Origin: Bacteroidales bacterium
GTDB taxonomy: Bacteria > Bacteroidota > Bacteroidia > Bacteroidales > JAADJA01
DNA length: 64,000 nt
Direction of reading: 5' to 3'
Assembly: GCA_020052415.1 (NCBI GenBank)
Contig: JAGVPB010000093.1
Span: forward strand, 1-64,000
The notes below the pieces were generated by a model that saw nothing but the letters and a program-made list of their open reading frames with translations, was not told the DNA's origin and did no database searches. The position numbers and the translations under genes were made by a program. Of this stretch, positions 128 to 18,194 are shown piece after piece (position 1 is the stretch's first letter; each line of letters opens with the position of its first letter).

Positions 128-1591
128 TTACCTCTGCCACTTCTCCCTACCCGCCATACGTACGATTACTGGAGTGAATTTTGCCAGGATTTCAACCAGG
201 TTCTTTTGGTAAGACAAAACCCTGTCAATGTTTTTATACACTGTTGGCGCTTCGTCCACATCGCCGCCAATAAGCTCGATGCCAGCATTTTCAGTCATCG
301 CCCGGAGATCAGATGAAGTAATTGTTTTTAACGCCTTTTTCCGCGACAGCAACCTGCCTGCCCCATGTGAAGCGGAATTTAAACTTGCTTTATCGGCCTT
401 GCCCCGGACAATATAACCCGGTTGTGTCATCGAGCCGGGAATGATGCCTGTATTATTTGTTCCTGCCGGCGTAGCTCCTTTCCGGTGAATGATAACCGGA
501 GAGCCATCCTGCAGCTTTTCTTTCCAGGCAAAATTGTGATGGTTCTCAATCATTTTTAAGGGTTCAAGGCTTAATGCTTTTGCAATTTTATTATGAATGA
601 CATGATGGTTGCCGGAAGCATACTCGCCGGCAAGGTTCATTGCGATCCAATATTCCATTCCTTCTTCCGAACCAAGGTCGAGCCATGCCAGATGCCTTGC
701 AATATCGGGCAATGCTATTTTTTCACGCGCTATCTTTGAATAAGTTTCGGCTATATGCGCTCCAAATCCTCTGGAACCGGAATGCGACAACAGGGCAATA
801 TACTTTCCTTTTGGCAGTTCAGGTAAATCATCCTGACTCGTTACTTCAAGAATTCCCCATTCCACAAAATGATTGCCTGCTCCTGAAGTACCATGCTGAC
901 GGTAAGCCAGGTTCTTTAAATCCCTGATCACTTCCGTTTCATTCCAGTCTTTTTTATCAAAAAGTCCTGTATCATGATGATCTTTGGTTTCACCGCCAAC
1001 ACCAAATATGGTATTGTCAATCAGAGCTTTTTTAAACTTTTCCTGTTCTTTTTTGAATTGCCTTTCAGGAATATTATAAACCGTCATACACATCCGGCAG
1101 GCAATATCCACTCCGACAGCATAAGGTATAACCACATTGCTTTTTGTGGCCAGCACACCGCCAATAGGCAGCCCATAACCTACATGAGCATCGGGCATCA
1201 GTGCGCCGGAAACGGTTATGGGCAGCCGCATTGCAGTATCCATTTGAATGATTGCCTCTTCTTCGATCTGTTCACGTCCGAAGACTTTATAATATGGCGG
1301 TTTATCTCTTAAGGTATGAATTTCACCACTGATTTTACGGGGCTTCTTTTTCGGTTTGGGTTTAAGTTTTTCTTCAAGTATCAATATTGCAAGCGGCCTG
1401 AAATCCTCATCTCCCGATAAATAATTTTCAGGATGGTCAGCTAATTGCTGAAAAATTTCAATGATCTCCGGTTTTGAAAACTTTCCTGACCTGAGGAATT
1501 TCTTTCCCGCCCTGCCGAATTCCCTGATCAGGCTGATATTTTCAATTCCAAGGATATGGAAATCGCCTGCGGTGAATTTTTCTTTTGCCAT
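128..1591 (-). CDS. rtcB: RtcB-family RNA ligase
   Basis: RtcB is a Mn- and GTP-dependent RNA ligase that joins 2',3'-cyclic phosphate (or 3'-phosphate) ends to 5'-OH ends in RNA repair or tRNA splicing. The 487-residue length fits the family. Visible motifs: PDAHVGYGLPIGG around residues 133-145 (metal ligands D134, H136), GVDIACRM around 160-167 with the metal-binding Cys C165, a GNHFVEWG motif, SHSGSRGFG, and SHGAGR, which carries the histidine that is guanylylated. The family more often reads GVDIGCGM, so this copy belongs to a divergent branch with a charged, Lys/Pro-rich segment near residues 77-86. The ATG at 1591 is the natural start. It stands alone; the upstream gene ends at 1760 behind its own terminator. 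No archease is visible beside it. Cytoplasmic. Confidence 0.93.
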   Translation of the reverse strand: MAKEKFTAGDFHILGIENISLIREFGRAGKKFLRSGKFSKPEIIEIFQQLADHPENYLSGDEDFRPLAILILEEKLKPKPKKKPRKISGEIHTLRDKPPYYKVFGREQIEEEAIIQMDTAMRLPITVSGALMPDAHVGYGLPIGGVLATKSNVVIPYAVGVDIACRMCMTVYNIPERQFKKEQEKFKKALIDNTIFGVGGETKDHHDTGLFDKKDWNETEVIRDLKNLAYRQHGTSGAGNHFVEWGILEVTSQDDLPELPKGKYIALLSHSGSRGFGAHIAETYSKIAREKIALPDIARHLAWLDLGSEEGMEYWIAMNLAGEYASGNHHVIHNKIAKALSLEPLKMIENHHNFAWKEKLQDGSPVIIHRKGATPAGTNNTGIIPGSMTQPGYIVRGKADKASLNSASHGAGRLLSRKKALKTITSSDLRAMTENAGIELIGGDVDEAPTVYKNIDRVLSYQKNLVEILAKFTPVIVRMAGREKWQR

Positions 1592-1655
1592 TAGTTACTA
1601 ACGATCAAATTTACCGGAATACTACTTTGATTAGTACAATTCCCCACAAAATAAA

Positions 1656-1697
1656 AAACTCAAAATCCAGTTTATTGTTCCCCTGAATTTTGAGTTT
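1656..1697 (-). terminator. Rho-independent terminator of the OB-fold protein gene
   Basis: An 11-bp perfect stem (AAACTCAAAAT at 1656-1666 against ATTTTGAGTTT at 1687-1697) is followed on the minus strand by a T-rich run. It lies 63 bases past the stop of the gene ending at 1760 and separates that gene from rtcB. Confidence 0.7.
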
Positions 1698-1759
1698 CCT
1701 GTGAATCTTCTTATTTATTTCCTAAGGCAAATTTATCAGTGGAATAAAAATTCCTGAGT

Positions 1760-3193
1760 TTATTGGATCGAAATTTTTTGTGAGTTAAATGAAAAATCAG
1801 CAAATTCCACCTTTACCAGGTAAATGCCTTTTGTAAGATTCGTTACATCCTGTGCTACAGAACTAACCTGCAACCCGCTTCTTTGAATGACAAGTGCTCC
1901 AGATGCGTCATAAATTTCATAAGAAGATATTTTTTCTTTGGCCGTGATTGTAATAGCATCTGTTGCAGGATTCGGGTAAACCGTAATCTGCACTTTAACT
2001 TTGTTCTCATTTATCCCGATGAAAGGAGTAATATCATCAGCCATTCTTGGATTCAGCTTGTACTCCCCAAAGCCGTAAAGCATTACACCGGTAATGTTAA
2101 GATGATCGCCAATAGTCGGAGTATAGGCATACATGTCATCATCCATTACAATATCGGCACTCTGACCGTCAATCCCGCGCCAAACGCCATATTGATCAGG
2201 TAATTCAGTGACCTCCACATTCTGAACCTGGACAAGAACACTTTCGTAATCTTCCATGTTGGATTGTAAGGCTGTGATTGTGACAACCGCTGGTAACTGA
2301 TTTCCTTGTGATTCAACACTAAAAGACGAAATATAACCCAATTCAGTCATGTCGTAATACTCCTGAACCTCGCCGGTTACCTTTACTTCGTCACCAATTA
2401 CCGGAATATTGTCGCTATCGAATACGAATAATCCGTTCCATGCTCCGGATCCATCCTGAATCGCATAACCATTAAATGCTACACCTGTTACAATTCCTGA
2501 TGTAGAAATTACCTGTCCGTCATAAGGTGAAGCAGCGCCCTGTCCCTGGATGTCGTAGATCGAAACTTCCTGTCCGGCTGAGCCACCGATGATATCGTCA
2601 ATAGACCTCGGGTTCAGTTTATGTTCATCGAATGAGTAAGTCATAATTCCGATCAGTGTAAGTTCTTCGTTCATGGTTGGGGTGTATAAATAGACATCGT
2701 CGTCCACCCTCAGGTCATCGTTGTTCTGATCCTTGGCAGTCCAGATGCCATACTGGTCGGGTAATTCGGTTACAGTTACATTTTCGACTTTAGAGAGAAC
2801 GCTTTCGTAGCTTTCACTTTGAGCTTCGAGGGCGGTAATAACTACAGGCACCGGAAGAGGATTTCCCGATGATTGAACAGTGAAGGCCGTTACATTGCTT
2901 AATTCGGTCATTTCATAATATTCCTGAACTTTAGCAGTAAGTGTAACATCATCACCCATTGATGGTGAATAGGTATTATTGTAAACAAACACACCGTTCC
3001 ATGCACCATCGCCATCCTGAATATAAAATCCGTTAAATGAAATTGCAGTTACGATGCCATGAGTTATTACAATCTGGTTCACATAAGGAGATGCTGAAGT
3101 TTGACCCTGAATTTCGTAAATGGTAACTTCGGTCTGTGCAAATAATCCGGCTGTCAAAAACATAGCAGCTAAGATTGTGTAAAAAGTTTTCAT
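1760..3193 (-). CDS. T9SS-secreted protein with two OB-fold repeats
   Basis: The 477-residue protein has an N-terminal signal peptide (residues 1 to about 20, cleaved near LFAQT). Two homologous segments follow, starting at VTIYEIQGQTSASPY (about 23) and VSIYDIQGQGAASPYDGQV (about 209). Each carries GIVT, a W-N-G-(L/V)FV-type strand and an EVQEYY(E/D)MTEL segment. This is the YhcR/DUF5689-like OB-fold often found next to secreted nucleases. From about 400 comes a T9SS sorting domain (VYPNPATDAITI and a GIYLVKV end). It is the third gene of a minus-strand group with the DUF5689 lipoprotein and the TonB receptor (gaps 50 and 33-34 bp). No catalytic residues are evident, so binding of nucleic acid or another ligand at the cell surface is an inference. 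Confidence 0.82.
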   Translation of the reverse strand: MKTFYTILAAMFLTAGLFAQTEVTIYEIQGQTSASPYVNQIVITHGIVTAISFNGFYIQDGDGAWNGVFVYNNTYSPSMGDDVTLTAKVQEYYEMTELSNVTAFTVQSSGNPLPVPVVITALEAQSESYESVLSKVENVTVTELPDQYGIWTAKDQNNDDLRVDDDVYLYTPTMNEELTLIGIMTYSFDEHKLNPRSIDDIIGGSAGQEVSIYDIQGQGAASPYDGQVISTSGIVTGVAFNGYAIQDGSGAWNGLFVFDSDNIPVIGDEVKVTGEVQEYYDMTELGYISSFSVESQGNQLPAVVTITALQSNMEDYESVLVQVQNVEVTELPDQYGVWRGIDGQSADIVMDDDMYAYTPTIGDHLNITGVMLYGFGEYKLNPRMADDITPFIGINENKVKVQITVYPNPATDAITITAKEKISSYEIYDASGALVIQRSGLQVSSVAQDVTNLTKGIYLVKVEFADFSFNSQKISIQ

Positions 3194-3243
3194 AATAGTA
3201 TATTTTAAATTATTGTCCTGTATTCTACTGCGTTATTTTCAAA

Positions 3244-4506
3244 TTAATTTTCCGAAATTTTTATGTTATCCAATTCCCATGTAGCACATGCAGAGTTCGT
3301 TGAAGTGTACCGGAAAGCTATGTGAACATTCGATCCGATATATGCTGATATATCCGCTTTTCCCGAAGGAATCCATTCCCAGTTATTGTTTCCGGGCGAC
3401 AGAGTAATCTGAAGGTCGGCCCAGGTTCCTGTTGAAGGATCGCCCGAACCATTATAATCAGTGGAAACTTTAACCTGAAGGGCATTTCCGTTATAATTTC
3501 TTGCTGTTTCTATTGAAATAAAGGCTGTGGGAAGACCTGACAGATTGATCGAAGGAGAAATCAGCCAGTCGTCATTTGCATTATAAGAGCCGTCGTAACC
3601 GCTGATGGTAACTCCGGGTTCGGGATTTCCATAGCTTGAACTGTATTCCCAAACCTGATCCCCAACAACACTGATATTTTCCCAAGCGCCATAACCGTCG
3701 TCAAATCCTTCAAAGAAAAGGATATTACCTGTACCTCCGTCGCAACGAAGTCCGGTAAGCTGTACCTCATAAGTCTGACGTATTAAGAGTTGCGTTTCAG
3801 CATCATAAACACTTGCAATTGCAATGAGAGAACCTTTTCCGCTGGGAAGTTCAGTATTGGCAAAGCTCGCATAACCACTGCTCCTGATTATGGTTTGAAA
3901 TCCGTCACAATCTTCAAGGGTGTGGTTCTCATCAACAAGATTTGCAGAATCGGCGTACGTTTTACCCATTTCGCTGTCGGAAAATTGTACGCTATCCAAT
4001 TTAATTAATGTTGACTGATAAGCATCAATATTAGTATTTAATTCCTCTATAGAAACTGTTCTGGGTTCATAAAACAAACCTGTTTTTATCTTGTAAACAT
4101 TGTCAGCGGGTTTGAGATTTTTGATTTCATACAGGCCATGATACAATTCAACAGTACCACCTTTTAATAATATCCTGACAGAATCGCCAAGATACATTCC
4201 GCTGGTATAAATAAAATTCAACTGAATTCCCCCTGTAGCATCCTGGATAAAAGAACTTTCATAAATGTTACCTGAATTTTCATCCATAACGACAACCCCA
4301 AAGACTGAGTAAATATCGGTAAATGTATAAATCCCGCCACTGTCAACCAGCATTTGCTTGATCTGTCCGATGGTTAAAACTTTGGTTGAATCGAAAGGTA
4401 TGGATGTTGAGGGTGGTGTATCAGGAGTATCATCCACACAACTGTTTAAAAGGACTACTGTTGTTGCAATTAAAAGTACAAATCTTATTATTATCGGTTG
4501 TTTCAT
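3244..4506 (-). CDS. DUF5689 / choice-of-anchor J lipoprotein
   Basis: The 420-residue lipoprotein has a lipobox ending at C23 (VVLLNSC). Residues about 45-255 match the DUF5689 pattern (SVFGVVVMDENSGNIYESSFIQDA, GDSVRILLKGG, with an internal LRCDGG end), an OB-fold-like Bacteroidota module. Residues about 260-420 form a jelly-roll of the choice-of-anchor J/MAM-like type (FFEGFDDGYGAWENIS, DDWLISPSINLSG, ATWELDNIKI). It lies directly downstream of the TonB receptor in the same direction. It probably works as the surface-exposed ligand-binding partner of that receptor, much as SusD-type proteins do, although it has no SusD fold signature. The ligand is unknown. Confidence 0.85.
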   Translation of the reverse strand: MKQPIIIRFVLLIATTVVLLNSCVDDTPDTPPSTSIPFDSTKVLTIGQIKQMLVDSGGIYTFTDIYSVFGVVVMDENSGNIYESSFIQDATGGIQLNFIYTSGMYLGDSVRILLKGGTVELYHGLYEIKNLKPADNVYKIKTGLFYEPRTVSIEELNTNIDAYQSTLIKLDSVQFSDSEMGKTYADSANLVDENHTLEDCDGFQTIIRSSGYASFANTELPSGKGSLIAIASVYDAETQLLIRQTYEVQLTGLRCDGGTGNILFFEGFDDGYGAWENISVVGDQVWEYSSSYGNPEPGVTISGYDGSYNANDDWLISPSINLSGLPTAFISIETARNYNGNALQVKVSTDYNGSGDPSTGTWADLQITLSPGNNNWEWIPSGKADISAYIGSNVHIAFRYTSTNSACATWELDNIKISEN

Positions 4507-4539: not shown

Positions 4540-7053
4540 TTAGAATCTGAAATTTATATTAAGAAAATACTGACGTCCGTATAAATAAAAACGATAGGGT
4601 GGAAATTGATCCAGGTCGAAAGGATCGTAGCGCCATTGTTCATACCCGCCAATAGCTAAATCCTGCGTGTCAAGAATATTATTCACGCTGAAATTCAATG
4701 AAATATTTTTGTTTTTAATTCTCCATGATTTACCGATATTGGCATCGAGGGTAAATCCCGGGTCCTCTTTTTCCTGCTCAAGGAGATCTGTACGATCGGG
4801 ATACTCAGGATCATAATTTGCTACTCCTTCAGCGCTTCGGCGGTCAGGATTAATATCCAGATAAACATTATCGTAATAATTAATACTAATACCCCCAAAA
4901 ATATAATGGGATGAAAAGTACTTAATGCCTGCCGATGCCGCTGTTTGCGGAAATCCGCCATCGAAATATCCTTTCATAAAAATTTGCCTGTTATCCAGTA
5001 CCTCAGCAGTATTATCCACTGAAATCGTTGCCATTGGATTTGAATCATAGTAGTATTGTCCCATTCCAAGAACCCCGTATAAAGTGAAGTTCTGGGTGAC
5101 CTTACCCTCAATTCCAAGTTCAGTGCCCCAGTGTATTTTATCAATTCCGGTCATCTGGAAGTTACCAAACGATTGCAGGACTTCATGATAAAAACTACGT
5201 GAATAAATCTGATCAGTAAATCTCGTATAATAAACGGTAGCCCTGGCTTGTACGTAAGGCGACCGGTATAAATAACTTAAATCCCCCGACAGGATTTTTT
5301 CGCTGTCCAGTCCATTTACAACTTCATTTCGGGTTCTGGGAGAAATATAGGTTGCTCTGAAATAAGGAGCGCGTGTTAAATACATAAGATTCGCATCAAT
5401 CAAATGACGGCCTGTGATCTTATAAGTTCCACCGGCTTTTAACCCGAAATTTTCAAAGGACTGCTTTTCCGAATCACCGTACGAATCATTCGGGAATTTG
5501 CCATTTCGCATGTGGCCCGTTCTCCAGAATTCAGTGTAAGAAATTGTGCCTGAAGTAAAAAAGTCAATCTTTTTATACTTGAAATTTGCCTGTAAAAAGA
5601 AATCATAACTATTGATATTGGCTGTATAATCATAGCCGAATTTATCCCCTTCTTTAATCACCTGATTCGGGTGATTCAGGTCATTCTGAATTTCATCCGC
5701 ATTTTGTGCGTAATCGCGTTCGGCAAACTTATCCCAGTTATGATAAAAATCTCCACCCAGTAAATCATCAACTAATTTATACTGAAAATTCTTATACCAG
5801 TTCAAATTTAAACCGCTGCTCAGTGAAATATGATCGTTGATCTTTTTTTGGTAATTGAAATTTGCACCGATCTGGCTTTTATCATTTCTTCTGTCTTCGA
5901 TCACATACTGCGAAAGCATACCTGTGGTGTTTTGACCCTGAGCACCATCAACGTTATAAATAGTATATAGACTTTTACTGTTAACAAAATAAAATTTGTC
6001 AAAATCCAGTTGCCTGAAACTTTCATCATTTTCCCAAAGATATTTTCTTTCTTCGGCGGTATAACCGTTAAAATCCCGCTCATCACTCGGAAGATTTCTG
6101 TAATAATCCGGTCGGGGATCAGCAACGTTGTACCAGTCAAGGCGAGTAGAACTACCCTTGCCGAAAGAATAAAATACGGATGAAGTCAGGGTTGTCTTGT
6201 CATTGATGTCAAAGTAATGGGTCAAAACCAGCATTGGCTGGTGGTAATTCGACACACTGGCATTTCTTTTTTCACCATTCTGATAACCCCAGTAAGGATT
6301 ATAATAATTAGTACCTGCATAGTCATTTGCTTCCTGAACACCAGCACCGTTTCTGCCATGTTTATTGGGAGAGCCGTAACCGATCAGGCCGATGCTGTGC
6401 TTTTTGCTGATTTTTTTCTCTACTGACAGAAAATAACTATATGCATCGTAAAAAGTACCTTCCACATAACCTTCCTGTGCCCATCTCCGCGAGCCGGATG
6501 CAGTGACTGCCCAGCCGTTTTCCATCAGGCCTGTTGAGTAAAGAAACATCAAACGATTGCGGTAATTCCGGTTTGTAAGCGAATAGGTAACTTTAATCTG
6601 TTTACTGAAAGTCGAAGCACGGGCAACGATATTGGTTACTCCACCAACTTCACCGAAGCCATATTTTGAGAATCCGATTCCAGTTCCGATTTCCTGATTC
6701 CGGGTTACATCGTTAAGGCCTCCCCAACTGGACCAATAAGCACCACCTGTTTCCAGGTCATTCAGAGGAACACCATTCATCAATATGCTTGTATTGTCCG
6801 ATTCATATCCCCTGATTTTATACCTGGTTTGCCCAAAAGTAAAACCAGCCGTTGAAACAAAAATATCCCGCGATGATTGCAGCAATCCGGAAATTTCCTG
6901 TGCCTGTTCATCACTCTCCAGATCTTCAGCAAAAACAGTTAGCTGCGGCATATCTGATTTATCAGACTTCATCTTCAGTGTGTCACTCTCCTGGGCGCTT
7001 GTAATTACTATCGAAGAAGCACAAAGAAGTGTAAAAAATATATTTCTAACCAT
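4540..7053 (-). CDS. TonB-dependent outer-membrane receptor
   Basis: An 837-residue outer-membrane beta-barrel receptor. An upstream in-frame ATG exists at 7086, but the ATG at 7053 is preferred because GAGGAT lies about 7 bases before it and it gives a clean signal peptide (MVRNIFFTLLCASS...). A plug domain follows (LLQSSRDIFVSTAGFTFGQ, YKIRGYESDNTSILMNGVPL, GFGEVGGVTNIV), then a long barrel with alternating aromatic strands ending in F (NINFRF). There is no N-terminal carboxypeptidase-regulatory domain, so it is not a canonical SusC. It heads the minus-strand group with the DUF5689 lipoprotein and OB-fold protein, and is divergent from a secreted endonuclease/phosphatase. That setting suggests uptake of nucleic-acid breakdown products or phosphate. 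Confidence 0.9.
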   Translation of the reverse strand: MVRNIFFTLLCASSIVITSAQESDTLKMKSDKSDMPQLTVFAEDLESDEQAQEISGLLQSSRDIFVSTAGFTFGQTRYKIRGYESDNTSILMNGVPLNDLETGGAYWSSWGGLNDVTRNQEIGTGIGFSKYGFGEVGGVTNIVARASTFSKQIKVTYSLTNRNYRNRLMFLYSTGLMENGWAVTASGSRRWAQEGYVEGTFYDAYSYFLSVEKKISKKHSIGLIGYGSPNKHGRNGAGVQEANDYAGTNYYNPYWGYQNGEKRNASVSNYHQPMLVLTHYFDINDKTTLTSSVFYSFGKGSSTRLDWYNVADPRPDYYRNLPSDERDFNGYTAEERKYLWENDESFRQLDFDKFYFVNSKSLYTIYNVDGAQGQNTTGMLSQYVIEDRRNDKSQIGANFNYQKKINDHISLSSGLNLNWYKNFQYKLVDDLLGGDFYHNWDKFAERDYAQNADEIQNDLNHPNQVIKEGDKFGYDYTANINSYDFFLQANFKYKKIDFFTSGTISYTEFWRTGHMRNGKFPNDSYGDSEKQSFENFGLKAGGTYKITGRHLIDANLMYLTRAPYFRATYISPRTRNEVVNGLDSEKILSGDLSYLYRSPYVQARATVYYTRFTDQIYSRSFYHEVLQSFGNFQMTGIDKIHWGTELGIEGKVTQNFTLYGVLGMGQYYYDSNPMATISVDNTAEVLDNRQIFMKGYFDGGFPQTAASAGIKYFSSHYIFGGISINYYDNVYLDINPDRRSAEGVANYDPEYPDRTDLLEQEKEDPGFTLDANIGKSWRIKNKNISLNFSVNNILDTQDLAIGGYEQWRYDPFDLDQFPPYRFYLYGRQYFLNINFRF

Positions 7054-16892: not shown

Positions 16893-18194
16893 TTATTGTT
16901 TAATTAATTTGAGTTTCTGTATGCAAAATTCATTACCGTTTTTCACCCTCACAAAATAAATTCCACCTGAATATTCACTCAAATCAACTGATTTTACAAT
17001 TGTTCCGCCGGCCAATCCTTCAAATGAATAAACATCATTTCCAAGAAGGTCAACAATTGCAATGGAATATTTCCCGGTAAAGTTCGCTTTAATAATAAAA
17101 TTACCCGAAGAGGGATTTGGATAAAGCATCATGTTACTTACACCAAACTTTTGTATTCCAGTGCACGGATCCACATAGATATCCTGTTGGGCTGATTTTT
17201 CACAACCGTTGAAACCCGTGTAGGAATAGTAAATGGTATGAGTGCCAATACCGGCTGTACCCGGATCAAACCAGCCTTCCGTAATTCCAGGTCCTGTATA
17301 AGTACCGCCTTCCGGCAATCCGCCGGTGAGTTCAAATGCCGGCCAGGTAAGGCAAACGTCGGCAAAAGGCTCAAGTGTGGTTGGAGGTAAGGCATTCACT
17401 GTGATATAGTCTTCAATCAGCATCGTATTGGTGCCGGAACCACTCGAAACCGTAAGTTCGACATCATAAACTCCAAAAGAATTATACAGGACTGTCGGAT
17501 TTTGTTCAGTCGAGGTCGCCGGATCACCGCCAACAAATGTCCAGTTCCAACCGGTAATAATTCCAGTGGAGTTATCCATAAACTGAACCTCTCCGGTTTC
17601 GCAAATCTCCGTCAAATCTGAACCGAAATTGGCTACCAGGGTATTGTCAATGCAATCCTGAAAATAAGGATCGAAACACGAAGCCGAACCCGGAGGCCAG
17701 CAAACATCAAAGCTCATTGTGTTGTCGGGGCAGATAACTACATAAGTAGGATAACCAATAAAAGGCTGGCCGGCAATTACAGTGTTTATGGCTGCTGGCC
17801 CTCCCCCCTGCGTTCCCGCACAAGGATTGGTAATTCCATATTGAGCTTTATAAGCATTGATCTGAGCATTATTGTCGGTAGGTGACAGGCCCCACATCAG
17901 GACATCTTCCTGACCGGCGCCCCAGTTAACGTACACTTCTTCAATTAATGGAGCATACGCTATACATGACGGTCAGGTAGTGTAAAACAGATCCAGAAAG
18001 ATTGTCTTACCCAGGGCAAGCTGTTCATAAAGATTCCACGTATTTCCATCCGAATCGGTGATGGTGAAATCACCGACCAGGTTTGCCGTTTTTACCATTG
18101 AAGGTTGAGCCGGCCTCTCTGCAATGTTTTCTCCCTGCGACCAGGCAAGACTAAAGGCAAGGGAGAGGGTCAGGAGCAGTAAAATTTTTTTCAT
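16893..18194 (-). CDS. T9SS-secreted thioredoxin-fold protein with in-frame UGA (candidate selenoprotein)
   Basis: Reading through one UGA gives a single 433-residue protein with a signal peptide (1 to about 19), a thioredoxin/redoxin domain (about 38-190), a PKD domain (about 200-275, TGWNWTFVGGDP) and a T9SS sorting domain (MLYPNPSSGNF to the end). The UGA (17973-17975) is codon 74, inside LFYTT-UGA-PSCIAYAP, exactly where thioredoxins carry the first Cys of CxxC; the second Cys is C77. The fold continues in frame afterwards, with the cis-proline strand GYPTYVVI (P149). UxxC is the classic form of thioredoxin-like selenoproteins. The internal GTG at 17936 is not a credible separate start. 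Alternatives are a Cys-to-stop mutation (TGT or TGC to TGA) making a pseudogene, or a sequence error. No Sec-machinery gene lies in this window. Confidence 0.72.
17929..17960 (-). promoter_or_regulatory. Possible SECIS-like hairpin after the UGA
   Basis: Twelve bases after the UGA, the mRNA can form a 9-bp stem (GCGUAUGCU with AGUGUACGU, three G-U pairs) closing a 14-base loop. The distance to the loop fits the bacterial SECIS range. However, the loop begins with CC and lacks the guanine usually found at its start, and the stem is weak. Suggestive only. Confidence 0.25.

Follow-up and report, generated by a model that had tools for sequence, protein, structure and literature searches.

Is the in-frame TGA of a thioredoxin-like gene in an uncultured member of the Bacteroidales a lesion, a sign of an altered genetic code, or a codon for selenocysteine (Sec, U)? 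The gene lies on the minus strand of a 64,000-nucleotide stretch of contig JAGVPB010000093.1 (the window), and a first-pass annotation of that stretch had proposed a Sec-containing redox protein exported through the type IX secretion system (T9SS). As that annotation noted, thioredoxin-like selenoproteins with a UxxC motif are known from bacteria; they appear in the Sargasso Sea set (PMC1088965) and in a table of PMC13188914, where the families include thioredoxin, Prx-like UxxC, cd02966 thiol-disulfide isomerase-like, and redoxin proteins. Surveys of 2006 (PMC1794560) and 2015 (PMC5322559) reported the Bacteroidetes to be without the Sec-decoding trait.

A single TGA in a frame under selection

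When re-read, the minus-strand frame runs from ATG to TAA and meets TGA once only, at codon 74 (tca on the plus strand), in the residue context FLDLFYTT-U-P-S-C (Table 1). The earlier description, of a 433-codon frame interrupted by a UGA where a CxxC motif would have its first Cys, was thus exact. The window holds 19 TGA-split frames in which 40 or more open codons precede the TGA and 60 or more follow it; 2 of them have UxxC, and of these two this gene alone continues as a long frame (360 codons). A lipoyl-synthase-like gene, so named by inspection of its translation, adjoins it.

Purifying selection acts strongly on the codons 3' of the TGA. When the window gene is compared with six orthologues that have U at this position, pN in the thioredoxin part after the TGA is 0.17 to 0.24, compared with a pS of 0.67 to 0.85, and the TGA is retained in all seven compared genes despite near-saturated synonymous sites. 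The same TGA is present in about 10 separately assembled genomes, which makes a sequencing error very unlikely.

Table 1. Features of the candidate selenoprotein gene, in window coordinates
Feature	Position	Strand	Basis
Predicted selenoprotein gene, 433 codons, one internal TGA (proposed Sec), TAA stop	16893..18194	-	Reading frame; at least nine further orthologues
TGA codon 74, proposed Sec, first residue of UxxC (U74-P-S-C77)	17973..17975	-	TGA or Cys there in homologues
SECIS-like hairpin, 11-bp stem, 10-nt loop with invariant G	17929..17960	-	Covariation; own sequence alone z = -0.89
Putative N-terminal signal peptide, residues 1-19 (MKK, hydrophobic core, AWS/Q)	18138..18194	-	By inspection
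ResA/TlpA-like thioredoxin domain, residues about 36-183, with U74, C77, and conserved P149	17646..18089	-	ResA profile, predicted structure
PKD domain, residues 200-266	17397..17597	-	PF18911, E 5e-10, above cutoff
T9SS type A C-terminal sorting domain, residues 357-428	16911..17126	-	PF18962 and TIGR04183, above cutoff

Domains that continue past the TGA

The first-pass annotation had seen a thioredoxin fold, a PKD domain, and a T9SS domain continuing beyond the UGA, and each was recovered, the last two above profile cutoffs and the first through the ResA profile and a structural model. No thioredoxin domain was reported for the window protein by Pfam. Membership in the ResA subfamily defined by NCBIfam NF002854 was rejected at 26.8 bits, below the cutoff of 170, the fold being of the ResA type nonetheless. 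In an AlphaFold2 model with a mean pLDDT of 87, the predicted thioredoxin domain superimposes on 1su9 and 3or5 (ResA and a Chlorobium TlpA-like protein) with Z of about 17 and 2.3 A over 136 to 139 residues, and the modeled fold places UxxC at a helix start and includes the conserved Pro. The U74 column (with U counted as C), the C77 column, and P149 are invariant in 23 homologues, as is Q20, the residue after the putative signal peptide.

The C-terminal tail matches PF18962 (Por_Secre_tail) with an E of 3e-12 and 47 bits (cutoff, 27) and TIGR04183 with an E of 4e-10 and 39.7 bits (cutoff, 23). Por_Secre_tail is found in 19 of the 23 homologues, similar tails occur on many other proteins of the window's genome, and SprA, the T9SS translocon component that was searched for, is present there at 2,566 bits.

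TGA or Cys at the same position in the family

Searches of 60 relatives returned 46 matches to the thioredoxin domain, half of which (23) contain exactly one stop. That stop is TGA every time, with no TAA or TAG among the 23, and in all 17 that were read out (15 together, plus a paralogue on contig C52 of the window's genome and the second gene of genome G049) it is the first residue of CxxC. The first-pass annotation had suggested asking whether position 74 is always Cys or Sec and whether close relatives carry stops elsewhere. In close relatives the codon is TGA or Cys and the matched part holds no other stop; Trp never occupies the position among the homologues. When named genomes were scanned, nine orthologues with U emerged, from metagenome-assembled genomes whose titles mostly read Bacteroidales or Bacteroidetes (for three of the nine, the contig equals in size that of a relative already found). 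The scan also yielded forms with Cys, L089 and L093 among them. One record, L091, has tandem U-type thioredoxin genes on the plus strand, near 992 and 2095, with UGTC and UGSC motifs. Another, L092 (JAUVIX010000076.1), is titled Chlorobiota bacterium, and its match equals that of G004, a member of the window's genus; the title may be misassigned.

On a tree of 79 thioredoxin domains, four changes between U and C are needed, a number that none of 500 shuffles matched or undercut, and the window's clade comprises 11 U rows with support of 100/94. Resolution is poor at the deep forks, which leaves it uncertain how many times Sec was gained or lost. The C52 paralogue (L119, plus strand, 5057 to 5884) is a second in-frame-TGA gene in the window's genome. 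Its product is short and thioredoxin-like, with a UGTC motif, and carries a T9SS tail; a strong hairpin (-20 kcal/mol) follows the UGA of the gene.

A covarying hairpin after the UGA

Past the UGA, the alignment of ten orthologous U genes is free of gaps, and all share the stem and loop listed in Table 1, with the loop G invariant in 10/10; the stem begins 12 nt 3' of the UGA, within coding sequence. In the stem alignment 91.8% of cells pair, and both sides have changed at five pairs; columns 33/48, for example, occur as A-U, C-G, U-A, and U-G. The covariation score was reached by none of 500 shuffles, and every slid register was far worse. Because the region is coding, synonymous recoding was used as a control: among 1,000 recodings of all ten sequences the lowest consensus energy was -5.6, compared with -12.85 observed. 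U genes retain 9 to 11 of the 11 stem pairs and Cys homologues 4 to 6, and the hairpin is absent from the latter.

The first-pass annotation had proposed a SECIS search here. The alignment contains a covarying SECIS-like hairpin, of which the window's own sequence forms 10 of the 11 pairs, but that sequence folded singly is unremarkable, and the support comes from the alignment. RNAalifold found no common structure for 11 more distant U paralogues taken together, which limits the SECIS claim to the window's clade; taken one at a time, paralogues can fold well, as the C52 gene does. An Rfam scan of the window gave no match. Like the classical bacterial SECIS, the element is a hairpin right after the UGA with a G in its loop, but at 10 nt this loop exceeds the small one described for the classical element.

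Sec machinery and its distribution

The window's genome (4.67 Mb, 97% complete) was searched for selA, selB, selC, and selD, as the first-pass annotation had advised, and all four were found. They lie contiguously on one contig and one strand as a complete selC-selA-selB-yedF-selD cluster, in which selC is a tRNA-Sec with anticodon TCA and yedF encodes a YedF-like TusA/DsrE protein. Sister genomes have the same gene order, which rules out a stray contaminant as the source of the cluster. Separate from it, on contig C81, is a second selD (L010, minus strand, 1384 to 3594) fused behind a domain named by inspection as NifS-like cysteine desulfurase/Sec lyase, in a product of 736 amino acids.

Among the 60 relatives, selA scored above cutoff in 15, and the identical 15 have a tRNA-Sec match of at least 56 bits; RF01852 cross-hits to other tRNAs, present in every genome, were set aside by score, the next best being 49.6 bits. 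TGA in the family tracks selA and tRNA-Sec. The 26 genomes with the family divide into 13 with both TGA and selA, 1 with TGA only (G049), 2 with selA only, and 10 with neither (Fisher p = 0.00017, an optimistic value because the genomes are related). Three members of the window's genus (G003, G005, and G013) are without selA and have Cys in their family member. G009 and G043 have selA but, at the threshold used, Cys members only.

Across 395 Bacteroidia genomes, selA was found in the window's own only, and the family matches of the 52 others that have the family contain no stops. Within the order, selA occurs in 13 of 17 genomes of the genus and in 2 of 43 others. Across the class, Sec decoding is therefore rare, and it clusters in this genus.

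The gene stands apart from the sel cluster in the window's genome. In G004 (L092) and G015 (L123) it is the last gene of the sel operon, 3' of selA-selB-yedF-selD, and in G047 (L122) it adjoins selC-selA. G049 has two thioredoxin genes with TGA at the Cys position, on separate contigs (L120, plus strand, near 6599; L121, minus strand, near 5632 of the reverse complement), and selA, selB, and tRNA-Sec were not found in this 95%-complete assembly. A missing contig, which that completeness allows, is the simplest reading of the absence; the U-type genes themselves would fit either a missing contig or a relic of a lost Sec system.

Discussion

We favor, with a probability of about 0.88, the reading in which the gene encodes a true selenoprotein with hairpin-directed UGA decoding, export through T9SS, and thioredoxin chemistry at U74/C77. 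The parts of this proposal, which is close to that of the first-pass annotation, differ in strength. Recoding of UGA as Sec is strongly supported at the sequence level by the sel cluster, the conservation of the TGA, and the hairpin. Export through T9SS is moderately supported, the tail and SprA pointing to it, and redox activity is suggested by the fold and motif. In the proposed route, SelB and a Sec-tRNA with anticodon UCA would decode UGA 74 as Sec under the direction of the hairpin 12 nt downstream, the signal peptide would lead the protein through the general export pathway into the periplasm, and the type A domain would carry it through T9SS to the cell surface or the medium. There the U74/C77 pair may act on an extracellular substrate by chemistry of the thiol-disulfide type (selenenylsulfide). 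Since an electron donor beyond the outer membrane is not obvious, oxidase/isomerase or peroxidase roles are as plausible as that of a ResA-like reductase; an oxidase or isomerase could act on other secreted proteins, and a peroxidase could use environmental thiols or sulfide.

Two accounts dispense with Sec. A recent nonsense mutation or assembly error that left a pseudogene or a 73-residue fragment would suit a window drawn from a fragmented metagenome-type assembly, with a hairpin that alone is not distinct from shuffles. It is extremely improbable given a TGA common to about 10 separately assembled genomes, 23 of 23 family stops that are TGA, purifying selection 3' of the TGA, and a covarying hairpin; the first-pass annotation had likewise thought a random nonsense mutation unlikely. 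We also give very little credence to UGA being read as Cys or Trp through a changed code or a suppressor tRNA. The presence of Cys at this position in homologues would agree with such decoding, as would the TGA codons of G049, where sel genes were not detected, but a tRNA-Sec with anticodon TCA is present together with selA, selB, and selD, Trp never appears at the position, and a code change needs no covarying hairpin. In-frame TGA is, moreover, rare, occurring in 1 of 19 redoxin-family matches in the genome (the C52 paralogue).

A different doubt concerns location. The protein could be a selenoprotein that works as a periplasmic ResA/TlpA-like reductase, and its T9SS tail would then not carry it out of the cell. 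The nearest solved folds (ResA, TlpA-like, CcmG, and AhpE) belong to proteins located in the periplasm, at the membrane surface, or in the cytosol, and a reductase beyond the outer membrane is left with no obvious source of electrons. Por_Secre_tail is nonetheless above cutoff here and in most homologues (19/23), with similar tails on many proteins of a genome that has SprA, and we regard a periplasmic location as unlikely.

An exported selenoprotein of this kind would join features known separately. Like other bacterial UxxC thioredoxin-fold selenoproteins, the predicted protein has Sec in place of the first Cys, common Cys homologues, and a hairpin just after the UGA, but it is fused to PKD and T9SS type A domains and comes from the Bacteroidota. 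It resembles ResA/TlpA-like oxidoreductases in fold, in the place of CxxC, and in the conserved Pro, whereas U replaces the first Cys and the protein, with its PKD and T9SS domains, would be exported rather than anchored in the membrane. With T9SS type A cargo it shares modular domains including PKD and a TIGR04183/PF18962 tail, and the putative signal peptide recognized by inspection would be a further common feature; the predicted Sec sets it apart. The first-pass annotation considered the combination of Sec and T9SS undescribed, and among openly licensed full texts we found no paper describing a selenoprotein or selenocysteine-containing T9SS cargo; PMC12016528 mentions both selenocysteine and type IX secretion, but for different isolates. 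The family table in the available portion of the 2026 review PMC13188914 names no T9SS or PKD fusion, the text of that review has no word beginning with "Bacteroid," and NCBIfam selenoprotein models did not match the window protein.

The gene lies in or near the sel operon in three genomes and several distinct branches of the family contain Sec, and on these grounds we suggest, tentatively, that T9SS-exported UxxC thioredoxins might be a main reason that the genus keeps its Sec system, serving as surface selenoenzymes that act on extracellular thiols, sulfide, or peroxides. Annotation pipelines that treat TGA as a stop only would miss or split such genes. Of 17 genomes from one uncultured Bacteroidales genus, 13 retain selA and tRNA-Sec, and the genus appears to use Sec in T9SS-tailed proteins. 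If confirmed, this would place selenol chemistry on or beyond the outer membrane, and the survival of a reactive selenol through two export steps would become testable.
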